Below, one piece after another: positions 43,857 through 48,197 of a DNA stretch of 48,197 bases. This DNA comes from Bacillota bacterium (GTDB taxonomy: Bacteria; Bacillota; Bacilli; Alicyclobacillales; SLC66). Location of the stretch: positions 1-48,197 of the forward strand of contig JAJZEE010000017.1 of assembly GCA_021805735.1 (NCBI GenBank), given 5' to 3'. How positions within the stretch are numbered: the first letter of the stretch is position 1; each line of letters begins with the position of its first letter. The notes beneath the pieces were generated by a model, which made no database searches, was not told the DNA's origin, and saw nothing but the letters and a program-made list of their open reading frames with translations. The translations under genes were made by a program, and so were the position numbers.

Positions 43857-43870
43857 TTACGTGACATCAA
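43819..43870. repeat. 52-bp dispersed repeat R1, copy 2
   Basis: Matches 31863-31914 with two differences. It starts inside the last codons (DVT, stop) of the tandem GNAT gene and runs into its 3' flank. Confidence 0.85.
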
Positions 43871-44924
43871 ACGATCCGGGCCAAATAACCAGACCGGGAT
43901 TCCGCGTCCCCTGCGACACACCATCACAATAGGCAGCCACCGCCGCATGATCCGGATTCAGTGGACAGATCATGCCGGCCGCCCAACTTTGCATGACGGG
44001 TCTACAGGGTTGTCGCGACCGCCTTACCATTTGCGAATCAGGATGGAGCGGAAGAGTCAATTCCTGCACATGTCCGTCGCACCGACCAAACAGCCAACTG
44101 AGCATACGCTCCAGTGCATCAGCGCCGCTTGGCAGAATACATCGGATGTGCTCTGGGTTCGTACTGTCTACCCGCACGTAGCCAATCGGCTCATCACGCT
44201 CGCACAAAATCCCTGCCATGGTGCGCTTGTCGGAACTCAGCCAATCAAGGGACGATGAGCCTGGGCGAATCGAGAGGTCAACATCGCCAAGCCACTGCTC
44301 CCACCAGGAGAAAAGGAGGGGTATGTCCTCTGACCGAATCCTTCGAATCTGATAGAGTTTGTTCTGATAGCAGTCAGCGGAAGCGGCGATCTTGACGTTC
44401 CGACGGTCGCTCACGACTCCGCACGTTCCGTACATGTGTGTGCGGTAACCAAATCGCGGATAATACTCCGAATGCCCAAGCACTACCACCATATCTACAT
44501 GTAACTCACGCAATCGGCGATGGCCTTCGCGGATGAGCCGACTGCCAATTCCTCGTCTCTGCCACATGGGGAGAACACCCACGGGAGACAAAATGGCTGC
44601 TTCGACCTGTTGTCCGCCAAGCAGGATAGACACAGGCGTAAACATAAGATGGCCGATGATTTGTCCGCCGGAATCGGGCATTGTGCCATCTTTGCCTTCC
44701 ACCTCTGCAACCAGGGAAAGTACAGGATTGTACGTCGAACTTAGGCGAAGAGCGGAAACCAATGACACGACTCCCATGTCCAGCCCTTCATCAAATGCAT
44801 GGACGTGCACATCTGCAATGGCTCGCGCATCGGATGCACGCTCCCCCCGAATGCAGATCGACAGCGGCGGCTCTCCAGACAGATGTTCCGTTCGGATATT
44901 CCCGTTTGCTTCATCAATGCTCAT
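43857..44924 (-). CDS. GNAT acetyltransferase with a second GNAT-like half
   Basis: 355 residues. The first half (about 22-170) is a YhbS-like GNAT: LSPVGVLPMWQRRGIGSRLIREGHRRL is the acetyl-CoA loop, and GHSEYYPRFGYRTH the family block. The second half (about 180-350, IRRIRSEDIPLLFSWWEQW ... PIGYVRVDST) has the same fold layout but a weak loop and may be a degenerate acetyltransferase or a binding domain, as in Eis-like proteins. No ribosome site is present; the ATG at 44924 lies in the tandem repeat after the mutS2-like gene, so coupling is likely. Confidence 0.8.
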   Translation of the reverse strand: MSIDEANGNIRTEHLSGEPPLSICIRGERASDARAIADVHVHAFDEGLDMGVVSLVSALRLSSTYNPVLSLVAEVEGKDGTMPDSGGQIIGHLMFTPVSILLGGQQVEAAILSPVGVLPMWQRRGIGSRLIREGHRRLRELHVDMVVVLGHSEYYPRFGYRTHMYGTCGVVSDRRNVKIAASADCYQNKLYQIRRIRSEDIPLLFSWWEQWLGDVDLSIRPGSSSLDWLSSDKRTMAGILCERDEPIGYVRVDSTNPEHIRCILPSGADALERMLSWLFGRCDGHVQELTLPLHPDSQMVRRSRQPCRPVMQSWAAGMICPLNPDHAAVAAYCDGVSQGTRNPGLVIWPGSFDVT

Positions 44925-44970
44925 CAATGCTCATCAATGCTCATCAATGCTCATCAATGCTCATCAATGC
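44911..44970. repeat. six tandem copies of a 10-bp unit
   Basis: TCATCAATGC repeated six times without error (GCATTGATGA on the coding strand). The array holds the last codons and stop of the MutS2-like gene and the start of the GNAT gene. A 10-bp unit shifts the frame with each copy gained or lost. Confidence 0.97.
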
Positions 44971-46876
44971 TCAACCCCTCCACGTGACGTTTTGACATGC
45001 TTTTATGCGCACGACGAACCTCCTTCGATTCCAGTACAATGTCCAAGTCATAGTCTGGCGGGTACAATGTCTCTCGGGACAGATACGGCGCCAGGCGCTT
45101 ACGGTGAATGATCCGTTTTTGCTTCTTGACCACGACGATGACTTTGCCCCGATCATCCGCAGGGCCTGCATAAATGCCACTGCACTTCCAGGACCGAATC
45201 CATACACGGTCGCCCGACTGGTATGATGGTTGATCCGCAGCTTTCCCTCCACGTTCCGCCAAAGCCGCTGATTCAGTTGGTCCTGCCGTCGACGCGCCTC
45301 TCTTCACCTCAGCGGAGGATCGAGAAGAGTCCGGTCGACCTCTCACAATCGTTTGCTGTGATTCGGCCAAGGAACGGGCACGCTGCACGATTCGCTCGGA
45401 AACTCCCAGTTTTTCTGCAATGATGAGCGCATAGCTCTGTCCTGCCACGCCAATCTGGAGTCGATATAGTGGCTGTAATGTCTGCGCGTCAAACTCCATC
45501 CTTGCATTTTCAAATCCAGGCGCGCCTTCAGCAAATTGTTTAATTTCATTGAAATGGGTCGTGGCTACAATCGTTGCCTTCAGGCCGTAAAGCGCCTCAA
45601 GAACCGCAATAGACAATCCGATTCCTTCGCCCGGATCAGTTCCAGCCGCCAATTCGTCAAGCAGCACCAAAGAGCGAGGGCCTGCATACTTCAGAATTTC
45701 AATCAGACGGGTCACATGTGCAGAAAACGTGCTCAGAGAGTGATCCATGCTTTGCCCGTCCCCGATATCAACCAAAATGTGTTCAAAAACCGTCAACTCA
45801 GTTCCCGGTCCAACAGGAACCAGCAAGCCAGACTGGGCCATCAGCGTGAGCAGACCGATGGTTTTGAGGGCAACGGTTTTGCCGCCAGTGTTCGGACCGG
45901 TGATGATGAGCGCCTGATAGCTTTCGCCGATCGTAAAATCGAGCGGCTCTGCCTCTCGTTCGAGCATCGGGTGGCGTCCACGGCAGATCTTGATATGTCC
46001 CTCAACATTCAGTTCCACCGATCGCGCGTCCATCGTTTTGGCCAACTTCGCCTTGGCAAACAAGAAGTCGTAATGTCCTACAATTTCGAGATTGCGCACC
46101 GTGGTACGCTGACTCTGCTCAATACTTTCTGTCAAGACACTGAGTATTCTCGACACTTCCTGCTCCTCTTCATGATGCAGCGCGGACAACTGATCGTGCT
46201 GAACCATGACCTCCTCCGGTTCCACGAACAGCGTTTGCCCGCTTGCTGATTCATCCAGGACTGATCCCTTAACCATTCGCTTATGCTCACGCTTCACCGC
46301 CAGCACGAAGCGCCCGCCTCGAGTGACATCAAATGCTTCTTGCAAGTACGCCCTGTATTTCTGCCGGACGACCTCTATTTTCCGACGCACCCGTTCCTCT
46401 ACAATGCGTATTTGCTTGCGAATACGGGCCAACTCGTGACTGGCGCCATCCAGAACTTCCTCGTGTTCCACGCAGCGTGCGATTTCGGCGCGCAAGTCGG
46501 GCAACGATACCAGCGATAACGCGTACGAGCTCACGACAGGAGCGACGTCGCTCTTTCTGGCCATGTACAATCGCAACTGTTCCATCCCATCAAGGAAGCG
46601 GGCGAATTGGGTAATTTGAACGGTTCCCAAAACCATCCCCTTGTTGATTGACTGCATGATGGCATGAATCCCGTCCAAGGAAGGGATGGGCACGCTCGAA
46701 GAGGCAATGACACGCATCGCCTCCTCCGTCTCCGTCAACCAGCGCTTGATTTGTCGTACATCGGCAGACGGCGTCAACGCTTCAACCTGCTGTCGTCCCA
46801 GATGGGAAACGGTGTGCGACAGCAACCGAGTCTTAATCTTGTCATAATCCAGCAGGCTAAATGCACTCGACAACAT
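44954..46876 (-). CDS. MutS2-like ATPase without Smr domain
   Basis: 640 residues. The core and lever helices (residues 1-290) precede the ATPase: Walker A is LIITGPNTGGKTVALKT, Walker B is SLVLLDELAAGTDPGEG, with ATTHFNEIKQFAE between. A disordered, Ser-rich linker follows, then a small beta segment (GDRVWIRSWKCSGIYAG). It ends HKSMSKRHVEGLSIDEH without the Smr nuclease domain of B. subtilis MutS2 (about 785 residues). It matches my recollection of a short MutS2 paralogue in Bacilli. Start ATG 46876 has GGGGAG seven bases before; the frame runs on to 47035 through a terminator. Confidence 0.88.
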   Translation of the reverse strand: MLSSAFSLLDYDKIKTRLLSHTVSHLGRQQVEALTPSADVRQIKRWLTETEEAMRVIASSSVPIPSLDGIHAIMQSINKGMVLGTVQITQFARFLDGMEQLRLYMARKSDVAPVVSSYALSLVSLPDLRAEIARCVEHEEVLDGASHELARIRKQIRIVEERVRRKIEVVRQKYRAYLQEAFDVTRGGRFVLAVKREHKRMVKGSVLDESASGQTLFVEPEEVMVQHDQLSALHHEEEQEVSRILSVLTESIEQSQRTTVRNLEIVGHYDFLFAKAKLAKTMDARSVELNVEGHIKICRGRHPMLEREAEPLDFTIGESYQALIITGPNTGGKTVALKTIGLLTLMAQSGLLVPVGPGTELTVFEHILVDIGDGQSMDHSLSTFSAHVTRLIEILKYAGPRSLVLLDELAAGTDPGEGIGLSIAVLEALYGLKATIVATTHFNEIKQFAEGAPGFENARMEFDAQTLQPLYRLQIGVAGQSYALIIAEKLGVSERIVQRARSLAESQQTIVRGRPDSSRSSAEVKRGASTAGPTESAALAERGGKAADQPSYQSGDRVWIRSWKCSGIYAGPADDRGKVIVVVKKQKRIIHRKRLAPYLSRETLYPPDYDLDIVLESKEVRRAHKSMSKRHVEGLSIDEH

Positions 46877-46908
46877 TCGGAACTCCCCTTTTCTCTCCTT
46901 GCATAAAC

Positions 46909-46954
46909 AAAAAAACAGGCGAACGAGAACCAACGCGTGGTTATCGTTCGCCTG
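46909..46954 (-). terminator. strong terminator just before the MutS2-like gene
   Basis: Stem CAGGCGAACGA / TCGTTCGCCTG (11 bp) continued by AACCA / TGGTT, followed by seven T on the minus strand. It ends 33 bases before the start codon, an attenuator position. Confidence 0.9.
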
Positions 46955-46989
46955 TTTGACGATGCCTGTACCGTCTGTCCTCATCCAAC

Positions 46990-47076
46990 CAAGTTGGCGC
47001 CGCAGACGATCCAGAGCCTGCCGATCTGAAGACATAAAAAACCCGTGCGCAACGCACGGGCCCGTAGACGATATCA
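46990..47076. repeat. dispersed repeat R2, copy 2
   Basis: About 85 bases shared with 31912-31998. It includes the first terminator of the MutS2 leader and the following transcript segment. Confidence 0.8.
47035..47060 (-). terminator. first terminator in the MutS2 leader
   Basis: CCCGTGCG / CGCACGGG stem with a 3-base loop, followed by six T on the minus strand, 160 bases before the start codon. Confidence 0.85.
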
Positions 47077-47571
47077 GTCAAACATCGTGTTTACGCAGCG
47101 CGATTTTACCGTTGTTCTTCTCTGCAATGCACACCGAAACAATCCTATTGGTCAGCCGATGAGAGTCATCCGCTCACGCAGGGCTAGTTGGTCATGTGTG
47201 CACAGATATGCAGTTGGCTAACGAAGAACAACGCTTCCCGACATAGAAACATCCCCTATAATACGATCTTTACTTAAGTTACTACGCGCAACATGGTCAA
47301 GTCAATCGGTATCTTGACAGAGCTTTTTGCGATGTCCCTTTTTCAAAGTCCAACGGGCGCGCGCAATCCCTCGCGTTAGCGTCTAAGTGTCGCCTCTGCC
47401 AGCATCACACACACAGCGCCAGTCCACAACGCACCTTCATCTTTGCGAGCCTACGGATCGTATAAGCGGGAATGGATTGCGTTCGCCATGTGCCTGAGAA
47501 ATCCTAGCCTACCCGCCTGCCTGTTCCTGTACTGCGCATTCGCGCCCATAAGTCCAATAAGTTCACTAACA
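47061..47571. other. leader and gap upstream of the MutS2-like gene
   Basis: Apart from the leader frame at 47218-47244 no gene is seen. Nothing of note was found in 47310-47571. Confidence 0.4.
47218..47244 (-). CDS. possible 8-codon leader peptide (MSGSVVLR)
   Basis: ATG 47244 with AGGGGAT six bases upstream, stop TAG at 47218. It lies upstream of both terminators on the MutS2 transcript. Short frames in this position are used by antibiotic-induced attenuators of Bacilli. The promoter is unclear: TTGACT/TTGACC boxes lie at 47295-47305 but with a poor -10. Confidence 0.35.
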   Translation of the reverse strand: MSGSVVLR

Positions 47572-48066: not shown

Positions 48067-48104
48067 TGAATACGCCTTCCTTCATTCCGTAGAATAGGCC
48101 CGAG

Positions 48105-48197
48105 CCGACCCACCCCTGTGAGGGGGCAGTTTGGCGCCCGAGCCCTTCCCCGAACCGGACTTGCGACTTTCACCGCATCCGGCTCTCCATTTGAAGT
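48105..48197 (-). mobile_element. group II intron fragment
   Basis: The minus strand reads GAGAGCCGGATGCGGTGAAA followed by GTCGCAAGTCCGGTTCGGG. The GAGCCGnATGnGGTGAAAGTC...CGGTTC stem-loop is a hallmark of bacterial group II introns near their reverse-transcriptase gene. No reverse transcriptase lies on the inner side, where the Nudix gene begins, so the element is truncated or continues beyond the window. Confidence 0.5.

Follow-up and report, generated by a model that had tools for sequence, protein, structure and literature searches.

A putative ribosome-mediated transcription attenuator upstream of an Smr-less MutS2 paralogue in Firmicutes

Introduction

Inducible resistance of Firmicutes to ribosome-targeting drugs is known to involve Erm methylases, ABC-F proteins, HflXr and exporters. 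HflXr of Listeria (lmo0762), a homologue of a ribosome splitter, is controlled by an attenuator and confers resistance to lincomycin and erythromycin (PMC6310831). Two further leaders of this kind are very short: the vmlR leader of Bacillus subtilis, which encodes the peptide MIN, is drug-stalled (PMC9226507), while the MsrDL peptide (MYLIFM) stalls in the presence of erythromycin at its own UAA stop codon, where termination is prevented (PMC10314930). MutS2 of B. subtilis splits stalled ribosomes, and its deletion causes hypersensitivity to chloramphenicol, tetracycline and erythromycin (PMC10897456). Here, we describe a 48,197-nucleotide stretch of DNA from a Bacillota bacterium (contig JAJZEE010000017.1 of assembly GCA_021805735.1; hereafter, the window), which carries a gene for a MutS2-type ATPase that lacks the Smr domain and that is preceded by a short leader open reading frame (ORF) and two intrinsic terminators. 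We estimate at roughly 80% the probability that this locus represents a ribosome-mediated transcription attenuator that induces the MutS2-type ATPase, the most likely trigger being a ribosome-targeting drug.

The gene product is a MutS2-like paralogue

The gene is located on the minus strand at positions 44954 to 46876 and encodes a protein of 640 residues with a MutS2 core, an ABC ATPase, a KOW-like domain and a conserved tail. Its start codon is the ATG at 46876-46874, which is preceded by AAGGAGAG; a start at 47035, which had been assigned mechanically and falls within the leader region, was discarded in favour of 46876 based on the ribosome binding site (RBS) and on the alignment of homologues. 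The protein scores 578 bits against TIGR01069 (cut-off 400), and is thus of the MutS2 type, while its closest solved structures are those of B. subtilis MutS2 (8qpp, 7qv3). No match to Smr was returned by Pfam, and the D[LVI]RG motif of Smr is found in none of 89 members of the paralogue clade as opposed to 20 of 21 canonical MutS2 proteins. The Walker A motif is present in all 89 paralogues, which also retain the KOW-like domain (hhalign probability 87.5% over 52 columns; sequence GDRVWI).

The genome from which the window derives encodes a separate, canonical MutS2 (C131) that is 37% identical to the window protein, and in a tree of 43 sequences the paralogues form one side of a branch (support 100/100) that separates them from canonical MutS2. 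Judged by its sequence, and because it lacks Smr, the window protein is a MutS2-like paralogue rather than the canonical protein. An earlier note on this DNA, which had been made from the sequence alone, was correct in naming a MutS2-like protein without Smr, although it had overlooked the separate paralogue clade and the presence of both proteins in one genome.

Homologues of the paralogue were found in Paenibacillus, Cohnella, Brevibacillus, Fictibacillus, Bacillus, Neobacillus, Clostridium, Lutispora, Thermoclostridium and others, together with seven further relatives, and 88 paralogue loci of Bacillales and Clostridia were used for the comparisons described below. Records labelled as phage that contain relatives of the paralogue were not counted as phage genes, as they appear to represent host DNA in wastewater assemblies.

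Leader ORF, terminators and promoter

Upstream of the gene, and on the same strand as all elements of the leader region, lies the ORF ATGTCGGGAAGCGTTGTTCTTCGTTAG at 47218 to 47244, whose eight sense codons encode MSGSVVLR, with ATAGGGGATG upstream and the RBS AGGGG at 47253 to 47257. The leaders of the homologues included here likewise have an RBS upstream, its presence having been a required condition in the search for them. Two intrinsic terminators follow. The first, T1 (47039 to 47063), has a folding energy of -17.3 kcal/mol (z-score -3.2, with one of 200 shuffled sequences folding equally well), and its CCGTGC..GCACGG stem is conserved in most homologues. The second, T2, comprises a hairpin at 46957-46913 plus a U tract (46905 to 46957 in total), attains -28.8 kcal/mol (z-score -6.6; none of 200 shuffles equally good) and has counterparts among the hairpins of homologues. 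The U tract of T2 ends approximately 33 nucleotides (nt) from the ATG of the paralogue. The 8-codon leader frame with its ribosome site, and the two terminators with the second 33 bases from the start codon, are thus as the earlier note had described them. That note had also held that a promoter downstream of 46909 would speak against attenuation; such a promoter is judged unlikely, given the promoter matches upstream of the leader described below and because the 33 nt between T2 and the ATG leave no room for it.

A putative sigma-A promoter of the leader is located at 47276 to 47305, with a -35 box TTGACT (47305-47300) and a -10 box AGTAAC/TAACTT at about 47283-47276. A sigma-A-like match of at least 9/12 occurs just upstream of the leader in 66 of 82 homologous loci, the mean match being 9.2 compared to 4.8 for shuffled sequences. 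In the two nearest relatives, similarity to the window begins at about 47316 and is confined to the sequence 3' of it.

Conservation of the leader peptide

A leader ORF of 6-8 codons with an RBS was identified 5' of the paralogue in 83 of the 88 loci, while no comparable leader was found at any of 22 canonical mutS2 loci. The encoded peptide nearly always ends in Val-Leu-Asn-stop, as in MSVSVLN, MSAVVLN and MLGVVLN; rarer endings are VLR (as in this window), VHN, VQN, YLA and VLNS. Among 76 distinct leader ORFs, including those of the bpsA-like loci described below, 62 end in VLN. The Leu codon varies between CTT, CTG, TTG and TTA, and the CTG forms of Cohnella retain the Leu residue yet break a base pair of the helix in which the end of the leader participates. 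Since Leu is kept across synonymous codons, even at the cost of a base pair, the leader peptide itself seems to be under selection.

Three records labelled as phage that resemble Enterococcus/Listeria host contigs (L116, L117 and L118) encode an Smr-less relative with 32% identity, whose leaders end in Gly-Ile-stop (MSVVGI, MSVAGI) and possess their own downstream complement, GATACC, as read by eye. This finding suggests that the leader arrangement is older and that the peptide has since diversified.

Leader:antileader helix and computed switch

The end of the leader is complementary to a sequence, here termed the antileader, situated approximately 70-125 nt past the leader stop codon, and farther in a few loci. 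A typical pair in homologues is GTTCTTAACTAA with TTAGTTAAGAAC. In the window, CGTTGTTCTTC pairs with GAAGAACAACG over 11 base pairs in the minimum-energy fold: the leader-side strand, CGUUGUUCUUC, at 47223 to 47233 would represent an anti-antiterminator, while the antileader at 47110 to 47120 may pair either with the leader or, when that strand is occupied by a ribosome, with the 5' arm of T1.

RNAalifold, applied to 71 full leaders, recovered T1 alone because the leader columns barely vary, and covariation was therefore counted directly on the leader:antileader columns. In 36 distinct rows, 83% of the cells pair, and 27 cells carry two-sided changes compared to 7.75 +- 2.5 (maximum 17) in 2000 shuffles; these shuffles leave relatedness in place, but the two-sided changes nonetheless arise in separate genera. 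Examples of compensation are a TGA stop with TCA (L039, L046), CAT with ATG (L073) and AACTC with GAGTT (L065), and such changes extend over the leader stop codon.

As duplex energies gave only modest support for the antiterminator, a stronger test with shuffled controls was employed, in which the leader end was masked as if a ribosome had stalled there and the transcript was cut at the T1 loop (71 loci). Under the mask, the median number of pairs formed by the antileader with the 5' arm of T1 was 7.8, compared to 0.09 without it; the number increased by more than two in 53 of the 71 loci and decreased in one. Means for the controls were 2.2 with a shuffled T1 arm and 2.8 with a shuffled antileader (Wilcoxon p 6e-11 and 1e-9, respectively). 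In addition, T2 hairpins with GA(A)C..GTTC were found in 38 of 56 loci compared to 2.3 expected, and the same antileader could conceivably act on T2 via GTTC.

The attenuator itself is well supported by these comparisons, because the leader, the covarying helix and both terminators are conserved across genera, a switch is computed from them and the arrangement is absent from canonical mutS2. Attenuation of this gene had been suggested by the earlier note, and two of the checks it had named, folding for antiterminator pairing and comparison of the leaders of homologues, argue for it, the former less strongly in the window itself.

Two further features of this region were recorded. The sequence TTGTTT at 47137 to 47142, between leader and antileader, is a possible NusG pause motif (TTNTTT), and such motifs occur at this location in 39 of 71 loci compared to 28.4 expected, a weak excess that is only suggestive and on which we do not rely. 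Furthermore, a conserved AATTnnATA-like motif is found about 2-10 nt downstream of the leader stop codon at almost every locus (at about 47215-47203 in the window); it apparently occupies an internal loop within the long helix.

Rfam returned no known leader or riboswitch class, such as the T-box, for the leader in five loci even at an E-value of 0.1, and its sole match in the window is a group II intron domain (RF00029) at 48089-48187, situated at the end of the contig and preceding a NUDIX gene.

A second target of the leader

The exact pattern GTTCTTAACT-N70-100-AGTTAAGAAC was present in 86 of the 245 genomes of Paenibacillaceae and in 22 of 39 from a Brevibacillus-like family, these family labels having been assigned from named loci, whereas the backward control yielded none; with a stricter form of the leader/antileader pattern, 37 genomes among 398 from the class were positive. 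Among 78 classified pattern sites, 57 precede the MutS2 paralogue, one lies at a contig edge, and 20 precede a gene of the BpsA_C family (PF01861; loci L122, L124-L126, L133, L135-L137, L153-L156, L158, L160, L163, L166, L176, L187, L189 and L195). This second location of the leader had been overlooked by the earlier note. Some genomes carry the leader at both the paralogue and the bpsA-like gene, and one (G413) has it three times, twice before a bpsA-like gene. At L053 and L094, both from Paenibacillus, the bpsA-like gene lies 4 nt 3' of the mutS2 paralogue, which adds an operon link between the two genes to that provided by the shared leader. The BpsA-like protein retains a GDDD motif, which is needed in branched polyamine synthases (PMC12979288), and has a C-terminal CxxC..CxxC segment.

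Proposed mechanism and alternative explanations

We propose that transcription begins upstream of the leader. During free translation of its 6-8 codons the ribosome would leave, the leader end would pair with the antileader, and T1 (and T2) would form, such that RNA polymerase stops before the gene. A ribosome stalled at the leader end, with Val-Leu-Asn or Val-Leu-Arg at the stop codon, would instead cover the leader strand, upon which the released antileader would pair with the 5' arm of T1 and perhaps also with the GTTC of T2, termination would fail and the gene would be expressed. The cause of the stall is most likely an antibiotic at the peptidyl-transferase centre or in the exit tunnel. 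The product, a MutS2-type ATPase that has a KOW-like domain but no Smr, would then probably split or clear stalled ribosomes, as does Listeria HflXr, and in Paenibacillus and Brevibacillus the same leader would drive the BpsA-like enzyme within the same response. That a drug or stress on the ribosome triggers the stall is presumed because the very short leaders of vmlR and msrD are drug-stalled, and a role of the paralogue on stalled ribosomes is presumed because B. subtilis MutS2 splits these.

Several observations weigh against this interpretation. In the window, the -10 box is weak (promoter match 8/12), though the -35 box is good; the switch is weaker, with antileader-T1 pairs rising only from 3.3 to 6.2 under the mask; and the antiterminator duplex has a z-score of +0.4, weaker than in Paenibacillus (mean over loci -0.9). 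An apical GTTC or TCTT match is present in only 44 of 82 T1 hairpins. In the full-length transcript the terminator is favoured at equilibrium in most loci, with or without the mask, and the antiterminator must therefore win kinetically by forming first during transcription. Among the exceptions are two loci with Clostridia-type leaders (L101, L102) and L083, at which masking lowers the terminator itself from 0.8-1.0 to less than 0.1. Finally, B. subtilis MutS2 without Smr binds ribosomes far less (PMC10897456), and the paralogue must therefore recognize ribosomes in another way. In favour of the interpretation, Smr mutants of B. subtilis are only modestly sensitive to erythromycin, and the ATPase matters far more than Smr or KOW for survival of this drug (PMC10897456). 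The present locus suggests that loss of Smr need not end the role of MutS2 on ribosomes.

In the most probable of the alternatives, which we nonetheless regard as unlikely, the attenuator would respond not to a drug but to the metabolic or physiological condition of translation, such as polyamine level, a shortage of release factor or EF-P, or generally slow termination. The second target, a BpsA_C protein with the GDDD motif of branched polyamine synthases, would fit this explanation given that polyamines support ribosomes, as would the position of the stop codon within the conserved helix. However, many hosts of the mutS2 leader have no leader at a bpsA-like gene, including the window's genome, in which the leader was found once and no PF01861 protein was detected, and the very short hydrophobic peptide with a stall near the stop codon resembles the drug-induced msrDL and vmlR leaders.

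Somewhat less probable still is a genuine switch whose product is a DNA-processing (anti-recombination) factor instead of a ribosome factor. The protein is a MutS-family ATPase, and MutS2 homologues have been linked to recombination (e.g., PMC4739419); nevertheless, control by a ribosome-sensing leader, retention of the KOW-like domain, B. subtilis MutS2 as the best solved relative, and loss of Smr, the proposed nuclease domain, all point towards the ribosome.

Classical amino-acid attenuation, in which the leader would respond to low levels of Val-, Leu- or Asn-charged tRNA, is very unlikely. The leaders contain between one and three codons for Val, and their codons for Leu and Asn are conserved, but no residue forms a run, the position before VLN may be occupied by S, N, K, G, Y, V, A, L and others, and neither target, MutS2-like or BpsA-like, is an amino-acid biosynthesis gene. 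The notion that the leader ORF is incidental and that the two hairpins act as ordinary terminators or protect the mRNA, to which the strength of both terminators and the weak antiterminator of the window might lend credence, is nearly refuted by the fact that leader, antileader and terminators are kept together and covary across genera at ~45-50% protein identity, are missing at canonical mutS2 genes and are found again in front of an unrelated second gene.

If the drug-triggered attenuator is accepted, the shared leader ties the BpsA-like enzyme to translation stress in these bacteria. One may tentatively envisage, at somewhat less than even odds, a new and widespread antibiotic-stress regulon of Firmicutes, consisting of a stalling leader of a new class (MS-x-x-V-L-N-stop), an Smr-less MutS2 that frees drug-stalled ribosomes and would join ABC-F proteins and HflXr as an inducible resistance factor acting on the ribosome, and a BpsA-like factor of a second, likewise new type that protects or modifies the ribosome. 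The leader represents a ready reporter for the signals to which the paralogue responds.

Neighbouring genes and other features

A GNAT acetyltransferase gene at 43857 to 44927 on the minus strand (ATG at 44924) is probably co-transcribed with the paralogue; a related GNAT lies 3' of the paralogue in four other loci (L034, L039, L051 and L087), and another GNAT neighbours it in Fictibacillus. A 10-bp tandem repeat of 6.3 copies (44911 to 44973; strand not assigned) spans the paralogue stop and the GNAT start. Its unit is not a multiple of three, and it is missing from the nearest, 95% identical relative (L034), whose C-terminus differs. In four Cohnella loci (L077, L079, L086 and L088) lepA, encoding elongation factor 4 (EF4), is located approximately 100 nt downstream of the paralogue. 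The paralogue and full leader are also present on a 115-kb Paenibacillus plasmid (L114; NZ_CP013204.1). Two relatives (L010 and G047:C6) possess copies that are frameshifted or broken by a stop codon, and the paralogue thus seems dispensable there.

Comparison with known systems

HflXr with its rli80 leader closely resembles the present system, as both involve a second copy of a ribosome-splitting factor, a small leader ORF, an anti-antiterminator, an antiterminator and a terminator, and transcription attenuation. They differ in that HflX is a GTPase whereas the window protein is a MutS2-type ABC ATPase, and in that the HflXr leader is the 14-residue RLR as opposed to the 6-8 residues ending in V-L-N-stop of the paralogue leader; moreover, drug induction and resistance have been demonstrated for HflXr, whereas the paralogue system is known here from sequence comparison. 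The vmlR leader shares a very short upstream ORF within the anti-antiterminator, a pause region and an intrinsic terminator, but its target is an ABC-F protein, its ORF encodes MIN, and its leader and helix sequences are different. The msrDL leader similarly encodes six residues, and the drug blocks termination at its UAA stop codon, thereby preventing formation of a Rho-independent terminator; its peptide and target are different, and a drug trigger would apply to the paralogue leader by analogy.

Like the canonical B. subtilis MutS2 (PMC10897456), the paralogue possesses core/lever, clamp, ABC ATPase and KOW-like domains, but in contrast to it lacks Smr, carries its own conserved tail, belongs to a separate clade (100/100) and appears to be under attenuator control. 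A literature search that covered subscription journals thinly and did not include preprints returned no account of an attenuator at a mutS2-type gene or of this leader. The conserved attenuator before a paralogue of a ribosome splitter suggests a further, uncatalogued intrinsic defence in addition to those listed at the outset: the type of system is known, while its peptide class, its target and its regulon appear to be new.

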